Below, in pieces: positions 2,092-14,088 of a stretch of 33,847 nucleotides of DNA (the stretch's first letter is position 1; the number at the start of each line of letters is the position of its first letter). The notes below the pieces were generated by a model. That model was given only the letters and a program-made list of their open reading frames with translations. It searched no databases and had not been told where the DNA came from. A program made the translations under genes and the position numbers. Source of the DNA: a virus; IMG/VR virus record IMGVR_UViG_3300027752_000059, positions 1 through 33,847 of that record. One strand, 5' to 3'.

Positions 2092-3246
2092 ATGAATAAC
2101 TCTAAAGAAACGCTAATCAACAATCTCCGTTCGTTCGCAGACGATAATTCATATGTGAGCCGCAAGTGCATTATCCGTGAAGCTAAGGCTCTCGGTATCA
2201 ATCATCCGAGCTTCCTTCTTAAAGATAAGTTTAAGGTTGAGTCAGGTGTATATAATCTGACCGAGATGTTCAGCGGTGTACAATCAATCTCTGCTCCAAA
2301 AGCACCTAGGGTCGTAGTCGATAATACTACACCGGTAGCTAAAAAAGTTACACAGGCTAAACTTGATATGGAAATACAAAACTTGATTCCTGCAAAGGAT
2401 TCAACCTTTGTTCCCTTTGGCTTCTATACGGATCTCAAAAAGATTCTAACAGCCAAAATCTTTTACCCTGTATTCATTAGTGGTCTGTCAGGTAACGGCA
2501 AGACTACAATGGTAGAACAAATTTGTGCGAATCTCAAGCGTGAGGCAATTCGTGTTAATATTAGTGTTGAAACCGACGAGGATGATTTAATCGGTGGCAA
2601 CACACTAGTTGATGGTAACGTAGTCTATCGAGAAGGGCCCGTCCTCACCGCTATGAAGCGGGGCGCAGTTCTCATTTTAGATGAAGTAGATCGTGGATCG
2701 AATAAGCTGATGTGTCTCCAAGCTGTCCTCGAGGGTAAGTCCTACTTCAATAAAAAGACTGGCGAAACCATAACTCCTGCTAGCGGATTTACAATCATGG
2801 CAACGGCTAATACAAAAGGTCGTGGCTCTGATGATGGTAAATTTATTAGCGCCCAGTTACTTGACGAGGCTTTCTTGGAGAGATTTGCCATCACCGTTGA
2901 GCAGGAGTACCCTACAATGTCAGTTGAGAAGAAGATTGTTCTCAACAAGATGGAACGTGCAGGGTGTGTCGATGAGGACTTTGCTACACATCTCGTCACA
3001 TGGTCTGATGTTATCCGTAAGACCTTTAATGAAGGTGCAATTGATGAACTCGTCAGCACTCGAAGGCTGGAACATATTGTGAATGCTTATGCTGTTTTTA
3101 AGAACAAGCTCAAAGCAATCACACTGTGTACAAATCGCTTTGATGAGGACACTAAGCAAGCCTTCATCGATTTGTACACTAAGGTAGATCCTTCTAACGA
3201 GCAGGATGAGGTCTCGGAAGAAACTACAAATGATGTCAGCTTTTAG
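2092..3246 (+). CDS. AAA+ ATPase, CobS/MoxR-like
   Basis: A 384-residue AAA+ ATPase of the CobS/MoxR (AAA_5) type. Walker A GLSGNGKT is at residues 131-138, Walker B LILDEVD has its catalytic DE at 197-198, and a sensor-1-like MATANTKGRGS and an arginine-finger-like LERF follow. The start at 2092 is chosen because GAGGG (2079-2083) sits 8 nt before it; an in-frame ATG at 2071 would add 7 residues. It has its own consensus promoter but lies just after the VWA gene, so the two probably act as a pair. CobS homologues are common in marine T4-like phages and usually labelled cobalamin genes. Here the neighbours do not support that, and a phage-specific remodelling role is equally likely. Confidence 0.87.
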   Translation: MNNSKETLINNLRSFADDNSYVSRKCIIREAKALGINHPSFLLKDKFKVESGVYNLTEMFSGVQSISAPKAPRVVVDNTTPVAKKVTQAKLDMEIQNLIPAKDSTFVPFGFYTDLKKILTAKIFYPVFISGLSGNGKTTMVEQICANLKREAIRVNISVETDEDDLIGGNTLVDGNVVYREGPVLTAMKRGAVLILDEVDRGSNKLMCLQAVLEGKSYFNKKTGETITPASGFTIMATANTKGRGSDDGKFISAQLLDEAFLERFAITVEQEYPTMSVEKKIVLNKMERAGCVDEDFATHLVTWSDVIRKTFNEGAIDELVSTRRLEHIVNAYAVFKNKLKAITLCTNRFDEDTKQAFIDLYTKVDPSNEQDEVSEETTNDVSF

Positions 3247-3249
3247 GAC

Positions 3250-3278
3250 TTGACATCATCAATTTAATTTAGTATTAT
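3250..3278 (+). promoter_or_regulatory. Early sigma70-type promoter
   Basis: TTGACA (3250-3255), 17 bp, TATTAT (3273-3278). The expected start is near 3285, giving a leader of about 97 nt that begins almost directly with a hairpin (3292-3312). Confidence 0.8.
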
Positions 3279-3291
3279 AGTAGTAAGACTT

Positions 3292-3312
3292 GGGACTGTC
3301 TATAAAAGTCCC
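3292..3312 (+). other. Hairpin at 5' end of the leader
   Basis: GGGACT (3292-3297) pairs with AGTCCC (3307-3312) across a 9-nt loop. It has no T-run, so it is not a terminator. Its place at the predicted mRNA 5' end suggests RNA stabilisation; that is inference. Confidence 0.5.
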
Positions 3313-3381
3313 ACTCACAGGAATAACTTACTAGTCCTGGGCGCTGCCAAAACGCAAGTATTTAAACTAAAGGAAACAATT

Positions 3382-4635
3382 ATGAAACTTTCAAGCACAG
3401 TAGTATATGTAGGACCTACAGTGTCCAGAGTATCTAAAGCAGATACTCTCATCAATCACCCAGCTAATAATACAATCCGCCGGTGCCGTGTAGGACAGGC
3501 CCTTGAGGAGCGACAGAATCTCCGGGCCTCTATTGCAAAGGAAGGCCTCAACGAGGCTATAAAAGTATTTTCTAATTCTAATTATATTGTAGGTGGTAAT
3601 ACTCGCTTTGAGACTTTACTTGATTTAGGCTGTGAAGACATACCTGTGCAGGAATTGCCGAGACCCAAGGTGCTGATTCAGCTTTACGGTGAGACCGGCG
3701 AGATAGATCCTATGCACCCTGTTGTATTGTCTAAGCTGCGGGCTGACAATACCAGTGTAACGGTTCCTGTTATTGATCGTTACTTACAGGCACAGGAAGG
3801 CATGGATCGTGAGGAAGAAACTTACGGTGACATTACTGTAGGCCGTAAGAAAGAAATCATGCGTGAGGCTAACATTGCTGTTCTTACATTTGAGATGTTG
3901 GCTAAGTTGCAGTTTGGATACTATGACAAAAAGTTAAAGGCTCAGGTAGAGGCAAGGGAAGATTTATTTGACGAGCTCCAAGAGTATAAGCAAGGTAAAA
4001 ATGTTGAAGGTCAATTCAAGGCTCAGTATCAAGACTTTGCTGAGCAGCATGATCCTAGCAAACGTACCTATGACCGGTCTGATGAGATGGATGATTTGTT
4101 AGATGAGTTTCCATGGGATACATTGCAGGATGCTGTGCTTACCGAAGTAGCTTATATGCGTAAGCGTAAATGGTTTGACATGTGTAACGAGAAGAACTTT
4201 AAGGGTGCTATGGTGCACCATGTACTCGCACATTACTTTGCCGAGTTTTGGAATACTTTAGACACGGACATTCATGCTATGACTGTAGATAATCAATCAC
4301 GTTATGATATTCACTTTATGAAAGGTGATAAGATTATTAACAGCATTGAGATCAAGACTACTATGGCAACTGCTTGGTCTACTGTATCTAAGAAGTATGG
4401 TTATGTTCTCTTATATAAATTCTCATCTGAGATGGATAGAGCATCTATCATTACTTCATGGTTAGATAAAAATTGGACTAACAGTAAGGACAAGGAGCTT
4501 TGGAAATCTGCAGGTAAAGGTGCTGTGCTTCAGGCTAAGGATTTGTATGAGTATGGTAATTATGATGTACGTTTAGGTTCCATGTATGTCGAGAACGGTA
4601 CAGTTAAAGTTGCTACAGGAGATATTGATGAGTAA
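3382..4635 (+). CDS. ParB-like N-terminus with PD-(D/E)XK-like nuclease C-terminus
   Basis: A 417-residue protein. Residues about 25-95 look like a ParB/sulfiredoxin-type N-terminal domain: a call to avoid one-residue matches is needed, but AKEGLNEAIKVF followed by YIVGGNTRFETLLDLG matches the ParB pattern of a short helix, a strand and a G-x-x-R-x-E-like loop. The middle is charged and helical. The C-terminal part has a PD-(D/E)XK-like arrangement: D309 in RYDIHF and E323-x-K325 in SIEIKTT, on adjoining predicted strands. The start has AAAGGAA 7-8 nt upstream. The gene has its own promoter. The fusion points to a DNA-acting protein, perhaps a nuclease targeted by the ParB-like domain. Neither activity is proven and both matches are by eye. 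Confidence 0.6.
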   Translation: MKLSSTVVYVGPTVSRVSKADTLINHPANNTIRRCRVGQALEERQNLRASIAKEGLNEAIKVFSNSNYIVGGNTRFETLLDLGCEDIPVQELPRPKVLIQLYGETGEIDPMHPVVLSKLRADNTSVTVPVIDRYLQAQEGMDREEETYGDITVGRKKEIMREANIAVLTFEMLAKLQFGYYDKKLKAQVEAREDLFDELQEYKQGKNVEGQFKAQYQDFAEQHDPSKRTYDRSDEMDDLLDEFPWDTLQDAVLTEVAYMRKRKWFDMCNEKNFKGAMVHHVLAHYFAEFWNTLDTDIHAMTVDNQSRYDIHFMKGDKIINSIEIKTTMATAWSTVSKKYGYVLLYKFSSEMDRASIITSWLDKNWTNSKDKELWKSAGKGAVLQAKDLYEYGNYDVRLGSMYVENGTVKVATGDIDE

Positions 4636-4909
4636 AAAAGTATACAAGTTCCGTGAGGACGAGTTGATTGAGGAGTTTAAGAAGTACATAGACTCTACTT
4701 ACGGGGGACACTACGGTCAAGGCGGACTACAGTCCGCTGAGGTCATCGTAGACAGAGGACACGGTCTAGGATTCTTTCTAGGTAATGTCGATAAGTACAA
4801 TGCTCGGTACGGTAAGAAAGGTGAACCGGCTGATCATCGTAAGGACATCTTGAAAGTGATTCATTATGCATTCCTAGCATTGAATGAACACGATAGAATA
4901 AACTCTTGA
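4628..4909 (+). CDS. DUF3310-like small protein
   Basis: A 93-residue protein. Its central part (SAEVIVDRGHGLGFFLGN, then KYNARYGKKG and a KDILKVIHYA helix) follows the DUF3310 pattern seen in many phages: a helix, G-F-x-x-G-N, K-Y-x-x-R, then a basic turn and a helix. The function of this family is not established. The start at 4628 is set by AGGAG (4617-4621) 6 nt upstream, and the gene overlaps the end of the previous gene by 8 nt, so they are co-transcribed. Its stop codon lies within the -35 box of the clamp promoter. Confidence 0.75.
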   Translation: MSKKVYKFREDELIEEFKKYIDSTYGGHYGQGGLQSAEVIVDRGHGLGFFLGNVDKYNARYGKKGEPADHRKDILKVIHYAFLALNEHDRINS

Positions 4910-4934
4910 CTTTGAACTACAAGTTATGTATACT
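4906..4934 (+). promoter_or_regulatory. Early promoter for the sliding clamp
   Basis: TTGACT (4906-4911), 17 bp, TATACT (4929-4934). The -35 overlaps the stop codon of the preceding gene. It probably drives gp45 and the replication genes downstream. Confidence 0.85.
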
Positions 4935-4963
4935 GTAGGTACAATAAATTTTAAGGATATATT

Positions 4964-5623
4964 ATGAAAATAAGTAACGATACACTCTCGGTTCTAAAAA
5001 ACTTCGCAGGTGTTAACACTAACATTCTGATCCGTGAAGGTAATGTTTTGTCTACTATCAGTGCTGGCAAGAATATCTTTGCTCGTGCTACTGTAGCCGA
5101 ACGCTTTGATCGTGAGTTTGCAATATACGATCTTAACAGTCTGTTAGGTTTGTTGACTCTGATGGAAGATACTGATGTAGCTTTTGGTGATGAGTCAATC
5201 ACGGTATCAAAGGATCGCAGTCTGTTTGAATATTACTACGCTGATCCTGAGATCATTGTGTCAGCTCCTGACAAGCAAATTGAAGTAGATGATTATTTCA
5301 GTTTTGATCTTTCTGCTACTGACTTAAATATGGTGATGAAGGCAGTTGGTATTACAGCAGCACCGATGATGAGTATTATAGGTGATGGTTCTGAGGTTGT
5401 TCTTACTGTAGGTGACCCGGCAACTGCTAAGAGCAATAGCTTCAAGCAAGTTATTGGTGCTAGTGAAAAGAAGTTTGCAGCACATCTTCAGATTGAAAAC
5501 TTAAAAGTCATCTCAGGCGATTATCGTATTATTATTTCCGAGAAAAGGTTCATGCATCTTATAAATACTAATACTGATGTAAAATATTGGTTGGCTCTTG
5601 ATAAGACTTCGGAGATCTCATAA
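4964..5623 (+). CDS. 45: Sliding clamp, T4 gp45
   Basis: A 219-residue protein, close to the 228 of T4 gp45. The start MKISNDTLSVLKNFAGVN and the strand-rich body, with LIREGNVLSTISAGKNIFARA and a C-terminal half built to the same pattern, fit the T4-type clamp, which encircles DNA as a trimer and tethers gp43. In T4 the clamp is also a co-activator of late transcription, which matters here because TATAAATA late promoters are present. AAGGAT lies upstream of the ATG. gp44 and gp62 follow in the usual T4 order, with small genes inserted between them. Confidence 0.93.
   Translation: MKISNDTLSVLKNFAGVNTNILIREGNVLSTISAGKNIFARATVAERFDREFAIYDLNSLLGLLTLMEDTDVAFGDESITVSKDRSLFEYYYADPEIIVSAPDKQIEVDDYFSFDLSATDLNMVMKAVGITAAPMMSIIGDGSEVVLTVGDPATAKSNSFKQVIGASEKKFAAHLQIENLKVISGDYRIIISEKRFMHLINTNTDVKYWLALDKTSEIS
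5560..5567 (+). promoter_or_regulatory. TATAAATA inside gp45 (possible late promoter)
   Basis: The octamer TATAAATA followed by CTAATA is the same 14 bases as at the late promoter 18073-18086. It lies inside the clamp gene about 55 nt before the next ORF. It could feed the genes downstream late in infection, or it could be chance in AT-rich coding DNA. Confidence 0.3.
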
Positions 5624-5977: not shown

Positions 5978-6913
5978 ATGAAAGAACATTTCCTCTGGGT
6001 CGAGAAATACAGACCCCAAACAATCGATGATTGTATCCTACCTGAAGATACAAAGGCGACTTTTAAAGAGTTTCTAAAGAAAGGAGAAGTTCCTAATCTT
6101 CTCCTTTGTGGTACAGCAGGCACAGGTAAGACTACAGTTGCTAGAGCCTTATGTGAAGAACTCGGTTGTGATTATATTGTTATCAATGGTTCAGATGAAG
6201 GTCGTCAAATCGATACTCTCCGAACTAAGATCAAAAGTTTCGCTAGTGCTATCAGTTTCGAAGGTAAAACTAAGGTCGTAATCATCGATGAGGCTGACTA
6301 TCTTAACAAGGATAGTGTACAGCCTGCTCTTCGTGCATTCATAGAAAACTTCTCAGAAAATTGTAGATTTATATTTACTTGCAATTATAAGCAGCGTATC
6401 ATAGCTCCTTTACATAGCCGAACAACTGTAATTGAGTTTAAGTCGGACAAGAAAGATAAAGCAGTACTTGCAACTAAGTTTATGAAGCGTATGCAAGGCA
6501 TCCTTAATAGTGAAGGAGTTACATACAAAGATCCGGTATTAGCAGAACTGCTAATGAAATATTTCCCTGATTATCGTAGAGTCATAAACGAACTTCAACG
6601 ATATAGCTCTGCTGGTACTATTGATGAAGGAATCCTTAACAATATAGCAGAGATAAATACGAAGGAACTTGTCAATTCTTTGAGAGAAAAGGATTGGAAG
6701 AAGATGAGGCAGTGGGTTGCTAACAATGTTGATAGTGATCCTCAATGTATATTCAGATTTATTTTTGATAGTTTGGTGCCTGAAATTTCTACTGTTCCTC
6801 AGATGGTTCTTCTTATTGCAGACTATCAGTATAAATCGGCATTCGTGGCCGATCAAGAGATAAATCTTATAGCCTGTTTGACTGAAATAATGGCAAGCGT
6901 GAAATTCAAATGA
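5978..6913 (+). CDS. 44: Clamp loader large subunit, T4 gp44
   Basis: A 311-residue AAA+ ATPase (T4 gp44 is 319). It begins with the family signature LWVEKYRPQTIDDCILP. Walker A GTAGTGKT is at 45-52, Walker B VVIIDEAD has DEAD at 104-107, sensor 1 is FIFTCNY, and the SRC-like arginine-finger motif appears as LHSRTT. With gp62 it forms the ATP-driven complex that opens gp45 and loads it on primer-template DNA. The start follows a weak GGTG. Its stop overlaps the next ATG (ATGA). Two small genes separate it from gp62. Confidence 0.95.
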   Translation: MKEHFLWVEKYRPQTIDDCILPEDTKATFKEFLKKGEVPNLLLCGTAGTGKTTVARALCEELGCDYIVINGSDEGRQIDTLRTKIKSFASAISFEGKTKVVIIDEADYLNKDSVQPALRAFIENFSENCRFIFTCNYKQRIIAPLHSRTTVIEFKSDKKDKAVLATKFMKRMQGILNSEGVTYKDPVLAELLMKYFPDYRRVINELQRYSSAGTIDEGILNNIAEINTKELVNSLREKDWKKMRQWVANNVDSDPQCIFRFIFDSLVPEISTVPQMVLLIADYQYKSAFVADQEINLIACLTEIMASVKFK

Positions 6914-7740: not shown

Positions 7741-8196
7741 ATGAGTTTTCTTGAAGAATTGGGTCCGCCTGTTGAAGTAGTGAACGAAAAAGATTACGAA
7801 GAAAAGATATCAAAGATTAGTCCTTTTCAGTTTGCCGACAGCATTAGTAATACTAAAGTAGATTTAATGGATACTGAACATGCTGAATCTCAGTATAATC
7901 CTTTTATAGTAAACCGTGCATTGAGCTTCGGGCATGACACTGTAATTGCTGCTAATGAGATGAATAGTAGACCTCACATAGATGCAAGAATGCAGTATGA
8001 TTTTTTGAGAGCAGTAATCAGGAAAGGTAAACGATACAATAAATGGTTAAAACCTGAAGAGTCTGATTTAGAAGCGATACAAGAATATTTTGGGTACAGT
8101 TTTAACAAAGCTAAAGAAGCATTGCGAATTCTTTCCAACGATGATATTGAGCGAATAAAACTAAAATTGAGAACCTCTAAAGGTGGTAAAGTATAA
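7741..8196 (+). CDS. 62: Clamp loader small subunit, T4 gp62
   Basis: A 151-residue protein (T4 gp62 is 187). The diagnostic stretch is YNPFIVNRALSFGHDTVIAA followed by NEMNSRPHIDARMQYDFL and RKGKRYNKWLK, matching the T4 gp62 pattern of 'N-x-A-L-S, D-T-V, A-N-E-M-N, Q-Y-D-F'. The N-terminal SPFQFADSISNTK also fits marine relatives. It completes the gp44/gp62 loader as the non-ATPase subunit. It is shorter than T4 gp62, as expected for marine forms. The start is one base after the preceding stop. Confidence 0.88.
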   Translation: MSFLEELGPPVEVVNEKDYEEKISKISPFQFADSISNTKVDLMDTEHAESQYNPFIVNRALSFGHDTVIAANEMNSRPHIDARMQYDFLRAVIRKGKRYNKWLKPEESDLEAIQEYFGYSFNKAKEALRILSNDDIERIKLKLRTSKGGKV

Positions 8197-8199: not shown

Positions 8200-8240
8200 C
8201 CTATGTTAAATTGAACAGCATTAATATAGGTGAAATAAAA

Positions 8241-8660
8241 ATGGATGACCGTAGTAATTTTTTTGACATTGATTATCCTGGATATTCTCCCTTGGAGATA
8301 AGATTAGACAATCCAGAAAATTTTCTTAAAATAAAAGAAACACTCTCTAGGATTGGAGTAGCTTCCCGCAAAGATCAAATTCTTTATCAGTCTTGCCACA
8401 TTCTTCATAAGCAAGGCAGATACTTTATAACTCATTTCAAAGAGCTGTTTGCTTTAGATGGCAAGATTGCTGACTTCACTGAAAATGATATACAACGAAG
8501 AAACACTATTGCCAAATTATTGCAGGAATGGGGTTTAATTGCTATATTAAATACAGAAGAATTGTCAGGTTGTCCGATGAGCCAAGTTAAAATTGTTTCG
8601 TTCAAAGAAAAAGTTGAATGGGAATTGGTGCCTAAATACAATATAGGCAAAAAAAGATAA
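8241..8660 (+). CDS. regA: Translational repressor RegA
   Basis: A 139-residue protein (T4 RegA is 122). The conserved core is plain: LDNPENFLKIKETLSRIG, LYQSCHILHKQGRYFITHFK, then RRNTIAKLLQEWGLI. RegA binds the start regions of many early phage mRNAs, including those of clamp and clamp-loader genes in T4, and blocks ribosomes late in infection. The start at 8241 is chosen for AGGTGA (8228-8233) 7 nt upstream; a TTG at 8211 would add 10 residues. Compared with T4 there is an N-terminal extension of about 17 residues. The order gp45-gp44-gp62-regA is as in T4. Confidence 0.93.
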   Translation: MDDRSNFFDIDYPGYSPLEIRLDNPENFLKIKETLSRIGVASRKDQILYQSCHILHKQGRYFITHFKELFALDGKIADFTENDIQRRNTIAKLLQEWGLIAILNTEELSGCPMSQVKIVSFKEKVEWELVPKYNIGKKR

Positions 8661-8666
8661 AAAAAG

Positions 8667-8695
8667 TTGACGTTAGCATATAAATGATGTATAAA
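8667..8695 (+). promoter_or_regulatory. Early promoter for hsp20
   Basis: TTGACG (8667-8672), 17 bp, TATAAA (8690-8695). The start is expected at about 8702, right where the first leader hairpin begins. The -10 is shared with a TATAAATA late element. Confidence 0.75.
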
Positions 8696-8697
8696 TA
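8690..8697 (+). promoter_or_regulatory. Late promoter overlapping the early -10 of hsp20
   Basis: TATAAATA at 8690-8697 includes the whole sigma70 -10 hexamer. Both would start RNA near 8702, giving the same leader early and late. Confidence 0.6.
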
Positions 8698-8700
8698 TTA

Positions 8701-8779
8701 GTGTCAGATGAACTGACACCAATACCCGGGATGCCGCAAGGATCCCATTACATACTCGCTGAAAAGGAGACGCAAGATG
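8701..8779 (+). promoter_or_regulatory. ROSE-like RNA thermometer in the hsp20 leader (candidate)
   Basis: The leader of about 75 nt folds by eye into three hairpins. SL1: GTGTCAG (8701-8707) pairs with CTGACAC (8713-8719). SL2: GGGAT-G-CC (8728-8735) pairs with GGATCCC (8740-8746) around a GCAA tetraloop, with one bulged G. SL3: C-TCGCT (8755-8760) pairs with AGGAG (8765-8769) around a GAAA loop, burying the Shine-Dalgarno and leaving G8758 unpaired. UYGCU opposite AGGA with an unpaired G is the hallmark of ROSE thermometers, which control small heat-shock genes. The match of motif, place and gene is strong, but no folding calculation was run. Confidence 0.7.
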
Positions 8780-9220
8780 GTAACTCGTAAGTTCAATGTA
8801 GCCGACATGGCTGAAATTTTAGATAATGTAAGACCATTCACAGTGGGCTTTGATCGTATATTTGACAATCTCAACAATGTATCAGAGATTGCAAGCAACT
8901 ATCCCCCCTACAATATCATTAAACAAGATGATGAACACTTTGTAATAGAACTTGCAGCCGCAGGTTTTTCTAAAGAAGAGTTCAACATACATCTTGTACC
9001 AGAAGGCAATAAACTTGTTGTCCAAGGGGTACAAGATAGAGGTGAAGACACAAAAGAATACTATCATAAAGGCATTGCTGCTAGAAACTTTACACGAACT
9101 TTTGCTTTGACAGAAGATGTAGAAGTAGAAGGTGCGGAGTTTACAGATGGTATGCTTAACATTTCTCTCGTTAGGATTATTCCTGAGGAGAAAAAACCGA
9201 AAGAAATTACAGTGAAATAA
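8777..9220 (+). CDS. hsp20: Small heat-shock protein, Hsp20 family
   Basis: A 147-residue alpha-crystallin family chaperone. The domain spans about 42-135, with the typical NIIKQDDEHFVIELAAAGFS start, RNFTRTFAL at 103-111 and DGMLNISLVRIIPEE at 124-138, equivalent to the family's G-x-L-x-I/V motif. It is closest in style to the IbpA group. Such proteins hold unfolding proteins for refolding; hsp20 genes are common in marine T4-like phages, perhaps to aid capsid assembly or survive stress. AGGAG is 7 nt upstream of the ATG but paired in the proposed thermometer hairpin. Expression may be both early and late. Confidence 0.95.
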   Translation: MVTRKFNVADMAEILDNVRPFTVGFDRIFDNLNNVSEIASNYPPYNIIKQDDEHFVIELAAAGFSKEEFNIHLVPEGNKLVVQGVQDRGEDTKEYYHKGIAARNFTRTFALTEDVEVEGAEFTDGMLNISLVRIIPEEKKPKEITVK

Positions 9221-10200: not shown

Positions 10201-12687
10201 ATGTTTTACACATACGCTAGACACTACGGCAACAAAATTCTTTACAGAGGTATAAGCACCTCAGGTAAACGACAAACAGCTAGACACGATTTTCAACCTA
10301 CTCTTTTTGTCCCCTCCGACAAGCCAAGCATATACAAGTCTATGTTTGGAGAATCTGTTTCTCCTATCAAGTTTGAATCTAATACTGAAGCAAAAGAATT
10401 CATTCAAAGCTATTCAGATGTTTCTAATTATCCTATCTATGGTCAATCTGATTGGAACTATCAATATCTAACTGAAAAGTTTCCTGACGAAGTTGATTGG
10501 GATCAGAGTAAAATTAAACTCATATCAATAGATATTGAAACGACAGTTGATAATGGGTTCCCTGATGTCAACAATCCGCTAGAGCAAGTCACACTTATTA
10601 CTATTCAAGATGCGGTTACTAAGAAGATTATTACTTGGGGCTGCGGTGAGTATACTCCTACTGAACATACCGCTCACTTGAATGTAGACTATCGATGGTG
10701 TGAAAACGAGAAGGCATTGTTTACTAGCTTTTTAAACTGGTGGGCTATGGATCCTCCTGATGTGGTGACTGGGTGGAATATTCAGTTATTTGATATTCCG
10801 TATTTAGTTTCTCGTACCGACAAGTTGTTCGGTGACGATATGAAAAAAGCCTTTAGTCCTTTCAATCTTGTTAAGAAGCATGTCGTAAAACTAGGCGCTC
10901 GTGAATTCTTACGCTATGAACTATGGGGAGTAGCTCAGTTAGACTATCTTGACTTGTACAAGAAGTTTACTTATGTCACTCGTGAATCTTATAAATTGGA
11001 TCACATTACTGAAGTTGAATTGGGTCACAAAAAGTTAGAAAATCCGCATGACTCGTTCAGAGAGTTTTACGAAAAAGATTGGAATCTGTTTGTAGAATAT
11101 AATATTATTGATACTGTGCTTGTTGACGAATTAGAAGACAAGCTCAAATTGATTGAACTTTGTTTTACTATGGCATATGATGGTAAGATGAATTATTCCG
11201 ATGTATCTTCTCCTGTAAAAACGTGGGACTGTTTGCTGTACAATCATCTTTGGCAACAGAACGTTGTCTTTGGACAGAAGGAAAGTAAGCAAAGTCGTAG
11301 CATTGCAGGTGCATATGTGCAAGAGCCTGTTCCAGGTCAATACGAATGGGTCGAGAGTTTTGATGCAACCTCACTCTATCCTTCTATCATCATGCAATAC
11401 AACATGTCACCTGAGACGCTAGTGTCAGGCGAAGTGTACGATGTGACTGTTGATGGCATGTTAGAGAAAAAGTATTCCTTTGATGGTAAGTATGCGGTTG
11501 CGTCTAACGGTCAATGCTTCTCTCGTGATAAGCTAGGATATATGCCAGAGATTGTACAGAAGTTTTTTGATGATAGACAGCGATATAAGAAGTTGATGAA
11601 GGAGTCTGAACAGTTACTTGAGGACACGAAAGATCCTAAGTATAAGAACGAGATTGCTAAATACAATAACTTTCAGATGGCTCGTAAGATTCAACTTAAC
11701 TCACTTTATGGTGCGATGGCGAATGAGTACTTCAGATTTTTTGATACTCGAATAGCAGAAGGCATCACACTATCAGGACAAGTTATCATTCGTGAAACTG
11801 CAATTGCTTTGGATGCTTATGTTAATGAAGTGTGCGGGACAAAGGGAGAAACCTACAGTTTCTATTCTGACACTGACTCCTGTTACATCACACTCAAAGC
11901 AGTTGTTGACAAATTCTTTGCAGACAAAGATACGAATAAACTAGTTGACATACTCGATAAGATTGGCACAGATCAAATTGAACCTTGCATATCAAGAGCA
12001 ATGGACAAACTAGTAGACTATACACACGCCTATGAGAAAAAGATATTCTTCAAGCGAGAAGCAATAGCAGATAAGGCTATTTGGATCGCTAAGAAGCGAT
12101 ACGCTATGAATGTGTATGACAATGAAGGAACTCGTTATCAAGTTCCTCAATTGAAGGTAATGGGATTAGAGATTGTTAGATCATCTACTCCTGCACCTGT
12201 TCGGGCTAGTTTGAAGGAAGCTGTTAGGCTTACTCTTACTACAGATGAGAAAACTCTTCAAAAGTTTATAGAGAAAACGCAAAAAGAATTTAAGTCAATG
12301 TCTCCTGAGGAGATCGCATTTCCTCGAGGGTGTAATAATATCGGCAAATACACTTGCGATACTGACATATACGCTAAAGGTTGTCCTATACACGTTCGAG
12401 GAAGTTTGTTGTATAATCATTACTTAGATGTAAATAATATCTCGCACAAGTATGAGAAAATACAAGAAGGGGACAAAGTAAAGTTCTTGTATTTAAAAGA
12501 GCCTAATACCATGCGTGAGAATTGCATATCATTCAACTCAAAAATACCTGCTGAGTTTAATGTACATCGCTATGTAGATTATGATGTGATGTTTCAAAAA
12601 GCCTTTCTTGATCCTATGGACACTATCGTTAAATCACTAGGATGGGAAACCGAAGAGACACATACACTAGAAGATTTGTTTTCTTAA
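10201..12687 (+). CDS. 43: DNA polymerase, family B (T4 gp43)
   Basis: An 828-residue replicative polymerase (T4 gp43 is 898). Exonuclease motif I is SIDIETTV with D111 and E113 (T4 D112/E114); Exo II is WNIQLFDIPYL and Exo III is EYNIIDTVLVDEL. Polymerase motif A is DATSLYPSIIMQYN with D388, motif B is ARKIQLNSLYGAMANEY, and motif C is YSDTDSCY with D557 and D559. KKRYAMNVYDNEG matches the late KxY motif. All catalytic acids are present, so it should be active in synthesis and proofreading. The end LEDLFS resembles a clamp-binding tail, as in T4-type polymerases. It is alone behind its own promoter. Confidence 0.97.
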   Translation: MFYTYARHYGNKILYRGISTSGKRQTARHDFQPTLFVPSDKPSIYKSMFGESVSPIKFESNTEAKEFIQSYSDVSNYPIYGQSDWNYQYLTEKFPDEVDWDQSKIKLISIDIETTVDNGFPDVNNPLEQVTLITIQDAVTKKIITWGCGEYTPTEHTAHLNVDYRWCENEKALFTSFLNWWAMDPPDVVTGWNIQLFDIPYLVSRTDKLFGDDMKKAFSPFNLVKKHVVKLGAREFLRYELWGVAQLDYLDLYKKFTYVTRESYKLDHITEVELGHKKLENPHDSFREFYEKDWNLFVEYNIIDTVLVDELEDKLKLIELCFTMAYDGKMNYSDVSSPVKTWDCLLYNHLWQQNVVFGQKESKQSRSIAGAYVQEPVPGQYEWVESFDATSLYPSIIMQYNMSPETLVSGEVYDVTVDGMLEKKYSFDGKYAVASNGQCFSRDKLGYMPEIVQKFFDDRQRYKKLMKESEQLLEDTKDPKYKNEIAKYNNFQMARKIQLNSLYGAMANEYFRFFDTRIAEGITLSGQVIIRETAIALDAYVNEVCGTKGETYSFYSDTDSCYITLKAVVDKFFADKDTNKLVDILDKIGTDQIEPCISRAMDKLVDYTHAYEKKIFFKREAIADKAIWIAKKRYAMNVYDNEGTRYQVPQLKVMGLEIVRSSTPAPVRASLKEAVRLTLTTDEKTLQKFIEKTQKEFKSMSPEEIAFPRGCNNIGKYTCDTDIYAKGCPIHVRGSLLYNHYLDVNNISHKYEKIQEGDKVKFLYLKEPNTMRENCISFNSKIPAEFNVHRYVDYDVMFQKAFLDPMDTIVKSLGWETEETHTLEDLFS

Positions 12688-13008: not shown

Positions 13009-14088
13009 ATGAGTTTATTAGAAAAATTGAAGAAGAATAGTACGATTAAAGATACGTCTATTCTCACTGATTCAAAGTTCTTTGGTGCAAAGGACTTAAT
13101 ACAAACTGCTGTCCCTGCTCTGAATGTTGCGTTGAGCGGCAAGCTAGACGGTGGGTTAACTCCTGGGCTGACAGTATTTGCTGGTCCTTCTAAGCATTTT
13201 AAAACTGCTTTCTCATTGTTGCTTGCTAAATCATACTTAGACAAGTATGATGACGGTGTAGTTTTGTTTTACGATTCAGAGTTTGGTACACCGCAGGCAT
13301 ACTTCGATACTTTTGGTATTGATACTAGCCGAGTGATTCATACGCCTATCACAGACATCGAACAGTTGAAGCATGATGCAATGTCACAGATGAATGGCTT
13401 TGAGCGAGGCGATCATGTAATTGTGATTGTAGACTCTGTTGGCAACTTAGCATCTAAGAAAGAAGTTGATGACGCACTTGATGGTAAGTCTGTTGCTGAT
13501 ATGACACGAGCAAAGCAGATGAAGTCATTGTTCAGAATGATTACGCCTCACTTAACAATCAAAGACATTCCTATGGTGGTTGTGAATCACACTTATCAGA
13601 CTATGGAAATGTTTAGTAAGGCAGTTGTGTCAGGCGGGACAGGTATCTACTACTCAGCAGATAATATCTACATCATTGGTCGGCAACAAGAGAAGACAGG
13701 TACAGACCTAACAGGCTATAACTTCATTATCAATGTTGAGAAGTCTCGTTTCGTTCGTGAGAAATCTAAAATTCCTGTTGAAGTATCGTTCACAGGCGGC
13801 ATTGCAAAGTGGTCAGGGCTGCTTGATATGGCAATGGAATCAGGTCATGTTATCAAGCCTAGCAACGGTTGGTATCAGAGAGTAGACACTGATTCAGGAG
13901 AAGCAGTAGAACCTAAAGTAAGAAACAAAGATACTTACACTAAGGATTTCTGGTTGCCTATTCTTCAAGATCAGACATTCATCGATTGGATTGAAAAACG
14001 ATATACAATCTCAAGTTCAGACGGCATAATGAAAGAAGAAATCACTGAGGAAGACATCGCAGATGTTTACGAAGCAATTGAAGTCTAA
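13009..14088 (+). CDS. uvsX: RecA-like recombinase UvsX
   Basis: A 359-residue RecA-family recombinase (T4 UvsX is 391). Walker A is GPSKHFKT at 59-66, the variant found in UvsX rather than RecA; Walker B is HVIVIVDSVGNLA; and VVVNHTYQTMEMFSKAVVSG forms the DNA-binding loop region. UvsX coats single-stranded DNA and drives the strand invasion that primes recombination-dependent replication. GGAGAAATAA lies before the ATG. gp41, the helicase loaded at such forks, follows after a small zinc-ribbon gene. Confidence 0.95.
   Translation: MSLLEKLKKNSTIKDTSILTDSKFFGAKDLIQTAVPALNVALSGKLDGGLTPGLTVFAGPSKHFKTAFSLLLAKSYLDKYDDGVVLFYDSEFGTPQAYFDTFGIDTSRVIHTPITDIEQLKHDAMSQMNGFERGDHVIVIVDSVGNLASKKEVDDALDGKSVADMTRAKQMKSLFRMITPHLTIKDIPMVVVNHTYQTMEMFSKAVVSGGTGIYYSADNIYIIGRQQEKTGTDLTGYNFIINVEKSRFVREKSKIPVEVSFTGGIAKWSGLLDMAMESGHVIKPSNGWYQRVDTDSGEAVEPKVRNKDTYTKDFWLPILQDQTFIDWIEKRYTISSSDGIMKEEITEEDIADVYEAIEV

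Follow-up and report, generated by a model that had tools for sequence, protein, structure and literature searches.

A candidate ROSE-type RNA thermometer in the leader of a phage hsp20 gene, with related elements before other phage chaperone genes

The hsp20 locus and the fold of its leader

The window, that is, the whole stretch of DNA that was analysed, is a virus record of 33,847 bases with T4-type genes. The features that bear on the hsp20 leader are as follows.

5978-6913 and 7741-8196: clamp loader genes, T4-type
8211..8660, plus strand: regA, T4-type translational repressor (Pfam PF01818, 152 bits), directly upstream of hsp20
8667-8695, plus strand: TTGACG 17 nt before TATAAA, seen by eye
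8690..8697, plus strand: T4-late-type promoter box TATAAATA, seen by eye
8701..8719, plus strand: hairpin I, GUGUCAG-AUGAA-CUGACAC, from the minimum-energy fold, at the presumed 5' end
8728..8746, plus strand: hairpin II, GGGAU-G-CC-GCAA-GG-AUCCC with G8733 bulged, from the fold and covariation; conserved core
8755..8769, plus strand: hairpin III, CUC-G-CU (8755-8760), GAAA loop and AGGAG, with G8758 bulged, from the fold and a match to covariance model R1
8765..8769, plus strand: Shine-Dalgarno site AGGAG, 7 nt before the ATG at 8777
8777..9220, plus strand: hsp20, 147 aa (Pfam HSP20, 59 bits; PHROG 432)
10201-12687: DNA polymerase gene, of the T4-type set
13009-14088: UvsX gene, of the T4-type set

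When the window's DNA polymerase was compared with 2582 phage records, the best 30 were all cyanophages, each at less than 50% identity. The order regA, hsp20, polymerase is common to the window and cyanophage S-SM2.

The initial annotation had folded the leader by eye into three hairpins, the last of which pairs C-UCGCU with AGGAG through a GAAA loop and leaves G8758 unpaired. This description was exact in its coordinates and agrees with the sequence and with the minimum-energy fold that had been proposed as a check; the fold of 8701-8785 contains all three hairpins, with AGGAG paired, at -23.9 kcal/mol. Shuffles of the same segment averaged -15.75 kcal/mol (sd 2.83; z -2.88), and 2 of 200 were equally low. 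The bulge at G8733 in hairpin II was unnamed in that annotation. Among the 21 sequences of alignment A1, hairpin I occurs in the window, L002 and L004, and in partial form in L021 and L026. Thus, while both upstream hairpins on which the annotation relied are present in the window, hairpin I does not belong to the conserved element. By sequence comparison hairpin I is lineage specific, confined to the window's nearest kin, and the conserved element consists of hairpins II and III.

How unusual the hidden Shine-Dalgarno site is

At 25 C, opening AGGAG costs 3.44 kcal/mol, which ranks ninth among the 23 window genes with a Shine-Dalgarno site of at least four of five letters, out of 38 starts tried. 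A second calculation of opening gave 3.47 for the window leader and 3.50 for the ibpA leader of Escherichia coli. The predicted opening of the window's site climbs smoothly with temperature, as it would for any short hairpin. On its own the hidden site is therefore weak evidence, since occlusion of Shine-Dalgarno sites is common in the window.

Sequence comparison shows that the observation does exceed chance, mainly through its relatives. An arm of the form UYGC(U/G) paired with the Shine-Dalgarno site was found before 71 of 80 hsp20 open reading frames (window plus L001-L080) and before none of the 579 other reading frames of at least 80 aa in the same DNA, which speaks against chance Shine-Dalgarno pairing. 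The nine hsp20 frames without the arm comprise seven in which an earlier in-frame ATG was used as the start, one that is truncated and one that was parsed otherwise. A looser pattern, any paired arm with any bulge, occurred before 47 of the 579 other frames, and a UYAC arm before seven, six of which represent one gene.

Scores with Rfam and custom covariance models

No Rfam family was reached in the window at gathering cut-offs, and ROSE, ROSE_2 and ROSE_3 gave no gathering-level match in any phage source tried. In a lax search, the alignment of ROSE_3 to 8725-8782 scored 10.8 bits, where the cut-off is 43, and preQ1-II had the most bits in the leader (14.2; E 7.8; cut-off 47); both are at chance level. 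Of nine relatives searched in the same way, four showed ROSE_3 at the leader, none above the cut-off of 43, and the other five showed no ROSE model at E <=1; preQ1-II was absent from the leader in all nine at that threshold. The ROSE_3 score was 34.1 bits (E 6.4e-4) for the leader of Methylophilales phage Melnitz-1 and 28.2, 24.9 and 22.5 bits for L146, L207 and L092. The Rfam check suggested in the initial annotation thus went against formal membership. Because gathering scores were not reached, we call the element ROSE-type rather than a member of RF00435, RF01832 or RF02523.

Two models of our own were used for comparison. R1 covers hairpins II and III and is a covariance model built from 22 sequences, none of them a dnaK leader. 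R2 is broader, and many of its training leaders, some of them from dnaK, are among those that it later matched. The window, itself one of the 22 sequences behind R1, is matched by R1 at 8725-8770 with 54.9 bits.

Relatives in IMG/VR and covariation

A protein search of IMG/VR supplied hsp20 loci L001-L080, the best 80 of 106, which are 45% to 100% identical. R1 matched 72 of the 80 at E <=1, once each, on the hsp20 strand and in the hsp20 leader, with no match elsewhere in the 356 kb of these loci; the count is not fully independent, as L001 and L012, for example, are contigs behind R1 or identical to the window. The eight misses are the truncated L028 and L034 and the loci L075-L080, which carry a diverged form visible by eye and of which R2 recovered L075, L078 and L080. 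In L075-L080, a UYACU-type arm also pairs with the Shine-Dalgarno site of the gene after hsp20 (L076:2464), by chance or as a further member. A search of genome contigs for host kin yielded four loci. One, L082, has the element by R1; the three weak loci L083-L085 had no R1 match. L082 is labelled as a Candidatus Pacearchaeota MAG and holds a phage-type hsp20 with the element, and is probably a phage contig in the bin.

We also searched for the DNA pattern GCCG.AAGG, gap, CTCGCT.AA, gap, GGAG, which returned at least 120 stretches; some of the contigs overlap L001-L080. By blastp, 110 of the 120 listed stretches lead into hsp20. The remaining ten are a cut-off hsp20 (L092), a dnaK (L141), a 54-residue reading frame (L180), a 74-residue frame (L137, L171 and L177) and four stretches that are chance-like (L107, L143, L169 and L200). 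R2 matches L137, L171, L177 and L180, but not the chance-like four. In L137 (2183-2407), the 74-residue protein behind the element is followed by hsp20 and has no Pfam match above cut-off.

The initial annotation had called for a search for compensatory changes among related leaders, and they are present, as double changes in hairpin II and as three swaps, read by eye, in the Shine-Dalgarno helix of cultured phages. In 79 sequences, 98.6% of hairpin II cells are paired and five of seven pairs covary. Cells with a double change number 155, compared to 45.0 (sd 4.9) in shuffles, none of 500 being as high, and this count far exceeds every slid control. Two of five pair measures showed no clear excess over shuffles in these sequences; pairs with change on both sides numbered 5 against 5.0 in shuffles, and pair types numbered 19, a value as high being reached in 20 of 500 shuffles. 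The A2 and R1 sequences hold GCCG.AAGG by choice, which fixes the inner two C-G pairs of hairpin II. In A5, a set of 104 model-fitted hsp20 and dnaK leaders, double changes occur at all seven pairs of hairpin II, at the inner two in one sequence each, and pair types were as numerous in 260 of 500 shuffles. Hairpin III in A5 has no pair with changes on both sides. At its Y position, 51 of 100 sequences have C-G and 49 have U-G, a split that corresponds to the ROSE motif U(U/C)GCU, and its last pair varies once.

Putative promoters and the start of the leader

Among 97 distinct segments of the pattern set, 71 have TATAAT, TATAAATA or TTAAATA within 45 nt upstream of the core, compared to 177 of 4505 control windows. 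The box most often lies 15-20 nt before GCC, and the usual leader therefore probably begins near hairpin II. In the window, hairpin I stands between TATAAATA and the core, and the box starts 43 nt ahead of GCC; a scan of the window leader with the sigma-70 consensus did not report the box seen by eye. In the L006 group (L006:1860-1960), the place of the window's hairpin I, between a TATAAATA box and the element, is taken by a long stretch that is strongly folded and contains conserved blocks. Of the 80 dnaK loci, 19 have TATAAATA upstream of the gene.

The element in cultured phages

GenBank held 508 phage records with an hsp20 match, from which 18 phage loci and one contaminant were examined. 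The element was found by model in 15 of the 18, with R1 accounting for 13 and R2 adding PA5oct and S-H9-1. These 15 belong to phages of Synechococcus, Prochlorococcus, Pelagibacter, Methylophilales and Pseudomonas and to a single-cell marine virus record. S-TIM5, HTVC103P and Salicola phage SCTP-2 have variants by eye, with a different arm in SCTP-2. Read by eye, the outer pair of the Shine-Dalgarno helix is compensated in S-TIM5 (CACGCU/AGGUG), HTVC103P (AUCGCU/AGGAU) and S-H9-1 (GUCGCU/AGGAC). When R2 was run on whole records, the hsp20 leader was the top match in 14 of 17 phages, although 13 of those 14 leaders had helped to build R2, and the only further matches were three weak ones (E 0.04 to 0.8). 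The contaminant is the record of Campylobacter phage A11a (L219, MG065691.1 73830-74801), which holds E. coli ibpAB with a ROSE leader and is therefore contaminated. Its ibpA leader has a match in 5367 of 5426 E. coli genomes and is annotated as ROSE in the five matches listed.

dnaK, groES and other genes behind the element

In L141, a contig with a bilin reductase, dnaK (3541-5487) and hsp20 (3014-3448), on the minus strand, each have a ROSE-type leader. Starting from this contig we collected dnaK loci from IMG/VR, the best 80 of at least 590. R1 gave 67 matches at E <=1 in 79 of these loci, all on the gene strand, with 38 just before dnaK (37 of 79 loci) and 29 just after it. R2, which was partly trained on such leaders, gave 117 matches in 80 loci, again on the gene strand only and just before or just after dnaK (63 of 80 loci have one before the gene and 54 have one after it). 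The first reading frame found after dnaK is hsp20 in 68 of the 80. A pairing parser recovered a bulged Shine-Dalgarno hairpin before dnaK in 78 of 80 loci, with UYGCU in 54 and UYACU in 24; it missed the truncated L272 and L262, where the hairpin is visible by eye. The parser's score of 67 of 67 for hsp20 beside dnaK is partly circular, as the hsp20 starts were chosen with the motif's help. With plain first-ATG starts, a UYGC or UYAC arm is present in 71 of 80 dnaK and 59 of 69 hsp20 frames, compared to 6 of 432 other frames in the same set (UYAC five times, one of them before groES, and UYGC once).

Across 32 whole dnaK contigs, R2 had a match at E <=0.3 in 25. Five matches lay off dnaK, before one hsp20, one groES and two small proteins and, in a chance-like case, in L352 (14.5 bits); four further matches outside dnaK and hsp20 were weaker (11.3 to 13.5 bits). 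A search for GroES gave four loci, three with the element. The groES leaders with a model match are L353, L354 (same contig as L351), L355, L253 and L314, and the groES leader L356 had none. With the element before dnaK and a few groES genes, the arrangement looks like a small chaperone regulon in large phages. Proteins of 87 and 88 residues stand directly behind the element in L349 and L350, and Pfam gave nothing above cut-off for the small proteins behind elements. Such proteins, 74 to 88 residues long, may also belong to the regulon.

Some neighboring features were recorded along the way. A UYACU-type arm pairs with the Shine-Dalgarno site of a reading frame that is ClpS-like by eye, at L259:3789, L261:3949 and L315:3942 in three dnaK contigs, by chance or as further members. 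A tmRNA gene lies near dnaK or hsp20 in two IMG/VR contigs (L138:619-918 and L275:4583-4866). Hallmark genes were few in the 32 dnaK contigs. The T4-type capsid protein gp23 was above cut-off in three contigs of 214, 245 and 278 kb, which are among the four longest, but not in the other 29; many of the contigs are fragments. Terminase was above cut-off in one. The phage nature of most dnaK contigs therefore rests on IMG/VR.

Two bulge types and a residue of Hsp20

The bulged G is replaced by A (UUACU or UCACU) in 24 of 78 dnaK leaders, or in 23 if L301, whose bulge is ambiguous and whose near-twins L275 and L303 have G, is read as G. In A-type leaders, the bulge of hairpin II is also A wherever the parse is canonical. 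Counting only leaders with a canonical inner pair, which leaves out 27 of 78 dnaK leaders, the bulges of hairpins II and III agree in 50 of 51 dnaK leaders (31 G/G, 19 A/A and one mixed, L301) and in 66 of 66 hsp20 leaders (45 G/G, 21 A/A, none mixed). Likewise, the dnaK and hsp20 leaders within one contig have the same bulge type in 65 of 65 cases. On the DnaK tree, where L301 was scored as G-type and L262, by eye, was scored as A-type, bulge type changes four times. The four independent pairs all agree (on supported branches, two pairs for dnaK and three for hsp20), a number with which sign tests cannot reach 0.05.

Bulge type also follows one position of the Hsp20 protein. The residue aligned with A54 of IbpA is T in 22 of 22 A-type contigs and A in 47 of 47 G-type contigs, in a column picked by a search over all alignment columns for separation of the bulge types; it is A in 46 of 46 other phage Hsp20 proteins, the window's included. 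On an Hsp20 tree with two of the separating columns (IbpA A54 and N26) blanked, the A type needs four changes, and a single A-type clade is not rejected (p-AU 0.053). The match between bulge and residue could thus reflect repeated joint switches of RNA and protein, or an A-type hsp20 that moved with dnaK leaders following, or one clade-wide event.

Interpretation and alternatives

We interpret the hsp20 leader of the window as a ROSE-type RNA thermometer, with a probability of about 0.78. The predicted fold, the covariation, the position before chaperone genes and the spread among phages come from sequence and comparison. ROSE elements have two to four stem-loops in total with at least one stable upstream hairpin, a place taken here by hairpins I and II, and they lie in leaders of small heat-shock genes, as this one does according to Pfam. 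With U(U/C)GCU facing the Shine-Dalgarno site, an extra G, a stable upstream hairpin and compensatory changes, the initial ROSE-type reading is upheld. Transcription would probably start at hairpin I or just before it. Stable hairpin II would then set the fold of the leader, and weak hairpin III would sequester AGGAG in a helix of five pairs and one bulged G, keeping translation low at normal temperature. On warming within the physiological range, hairpin III would melt first and let the ribosome enter. The outcome for the phage would be a burst of Hsp20 when infection takes place under heat.

The idea, also raised in the initial annotation, that the phage kept a host control element with a captured gene turned out to be too narrow, given that the element occurs in phages of very different hosts and also before dnaK and groES. 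Because the same two-hairpin switch, which closely resembles bacterial RNA thermometers, precedes chaperone genes in many different phages, it is probable that phages have their own small heat-shock system.

An alternative, or addition, is that the leader is a protein operator. Phage Hsp20 would bind the bulged hairpins and repress chaperone mRNAs, its own among them, until it is titrated by aggregates; heat would act mainly through aggregates, and melting may act alongside. There is a precedent in IbpA of E. coli, which binds its own 5'UTR and represses translation, with R93 essential (PMC10474464). Of 115 phage Hsp20 proteins, 114 have R at the aligned position, the window's among them. Hsp20 as an added repressor would also account for the conservation of the bulges, for which pairing alone gives no reason. 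The agreement of bulge type between the two hairpins, its agreement between the dnaK and hsp20 leaders of a contig, and its match to a single residue of Hsp20 point in the same direction. Yet R93 is common in alpha- and gammaproteobacterial IbpA (PMC10474464), so its presence may be inheritance only, and PA5oct has K in that column. Furthermore, the correlated residue was chosen by an all-column search, and the independent switches are few, with four on the DnaK tree and a single Hsp20 clade fitting the data. We give the operator somewhat less than even odds. An extended version would join a chaperone regulon of hsp20, dnaK and groES, each with its own ROSE-type leader, to an Hsp20 that reads the bulges as a self-titrating repressor; in this version G/G bulges would go with Ala and A/A bulges with Thr, RNA and protein having changed together. 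This extension is possible, though on balance doubtful.

Other explanations appear much less probable. RegA is encoded next door, its gene adjoining hsp20 upstream in the window and in the five cyanophage loci viewed, and could bind the hsp20 start region with the hairpin as its site. However, RegA was not found in 7 of 20 element-bearing records (HTVC115P, HTVC103P, PA5oct, S-TIM5, G009, G011 and G026, the last three being contigs that may be incomplete), and the element is present in all seven, with model matches in five (weak in two, E 0.05 and 0.19) and by eye in S-TIM5 and HTVC103P. For this reason we regard a RegA site as very unlikely. It is improbable, too, that these are ordinary 5' mRNA-stability hairpins, or Shine-Dalgarno pairing by chance, with no role in control. 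Such readings can draw on the commonness of occluded sites in the window and on a core near the presumed 5' end, but they leave unexplained the covariation and the conservation of motif and bulge among distant phages, nearly always in front of chaperone genes. As for a metabolite riboswitch, preQ1-II was the highest-scoring family when the leader was searched laxly, but with an E value and a cut-off that place it at chance, and it appeared in none of the nine relatives while ROSE_3 appeared in four; its probability is negligible.

In a comparison of 16 cyanophages, hsp20 is a core gene, for which a guess of help in capsid maturation has been offered (PMC3037559). If the leader is a ROSE-type thermometer, the place of hsp20 in the core of these cyanophages would have a direct explanation that can be tested, and infection would be tied to water temperature. 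If the regulon with Hsp20 as its reader were true, a thermometer and an aggregation sensor would be joined in one switch. The G and A bulges with their matching Hsp20 residue would offer natural variants for studying the recognition of an mRNA by the small heat-shock protein that it encodes.

Comparison with known systems

ROSE elements before bacterial small heat-shock genes are known already, as are a few phage thermosensors of other kinds. Among the systems closest to the phage element are the short ROSE-like ibpA thermometers of Pseudomonas. These two-hairpin ROSE elements repress at 25 C and allow translation at 42 C, and they resemble the phage leaders in having a stable first and a short second hairpin before an Hsp20-family gene and U(U/C)GCU facing the Shine-Dalgarno site with flanking G-C pairs (PMC3669281). 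The ibpA promoter is a sigma-32 promoter (PMC3669281), whereas the phage boxes are of sigma-70 or T4-late type by eye, and in comparison the second bulged G, in the upstream hairpin, is a phage feature. The consensus of Rfam ROSE_3 (RF02523) aligns end to end with phage leaders, which score below its gathering cut-off of 43.

The E. coli ibpA and ibpB leaders likewise have CUCGCU facing AGGAG with a bulged G, and that of ibpB also has GCUC-G-CC-GUCA-GG-GAGC, scoring 16.4 bits with R2. Unlike the phage leaders, both are bacterial with extra or longer hairpins, and ibpA is recognised by Rfam ROSE_2 at 100.4 bits. Of the ROSE elements of rhizobia and sphingomonads (RF00435), L226 and L227 have a hairpin with a bulged G before CC..GG and UUGCU near the Shine-Dalgarno site. 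The Sphingomonas hairpin of this form scored 14.5 bits with R1, and its leader passes Rfam ROSE. When R1 was applied to four plasmid sHsp leaders, L227 was clear, L226 was at E 3.2 and two were unmatched; the Rhizobium etli and Phenylobacterium leaders had no R1 match. ROSE elements of this group have more hairpins than the phage element (PMC3669281).

Outside the proteobacteria, the sHsp leader of Anabaena variabilis, a cyanobacterial gene, is described as having ROSE-like control of the Shine-Dalgarno site (PMC4166951). Among phage genes, lambda cIII is described as controlled by a leader structure that responds to temperature (PMC4166951), and blyA of SP-beta by a fourU thermosensor (PMC10586365); both have other structures and neither belongs to a chaperone. 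We found no report of ROSE-type elements in phages in the open-licence literature searched. As far as that literature shows, what is new here is the phage-wide occurrence of ROSE-type elements, also before dnaK and groES, together with the A-bulge type and the link to a residue of Hsp20.
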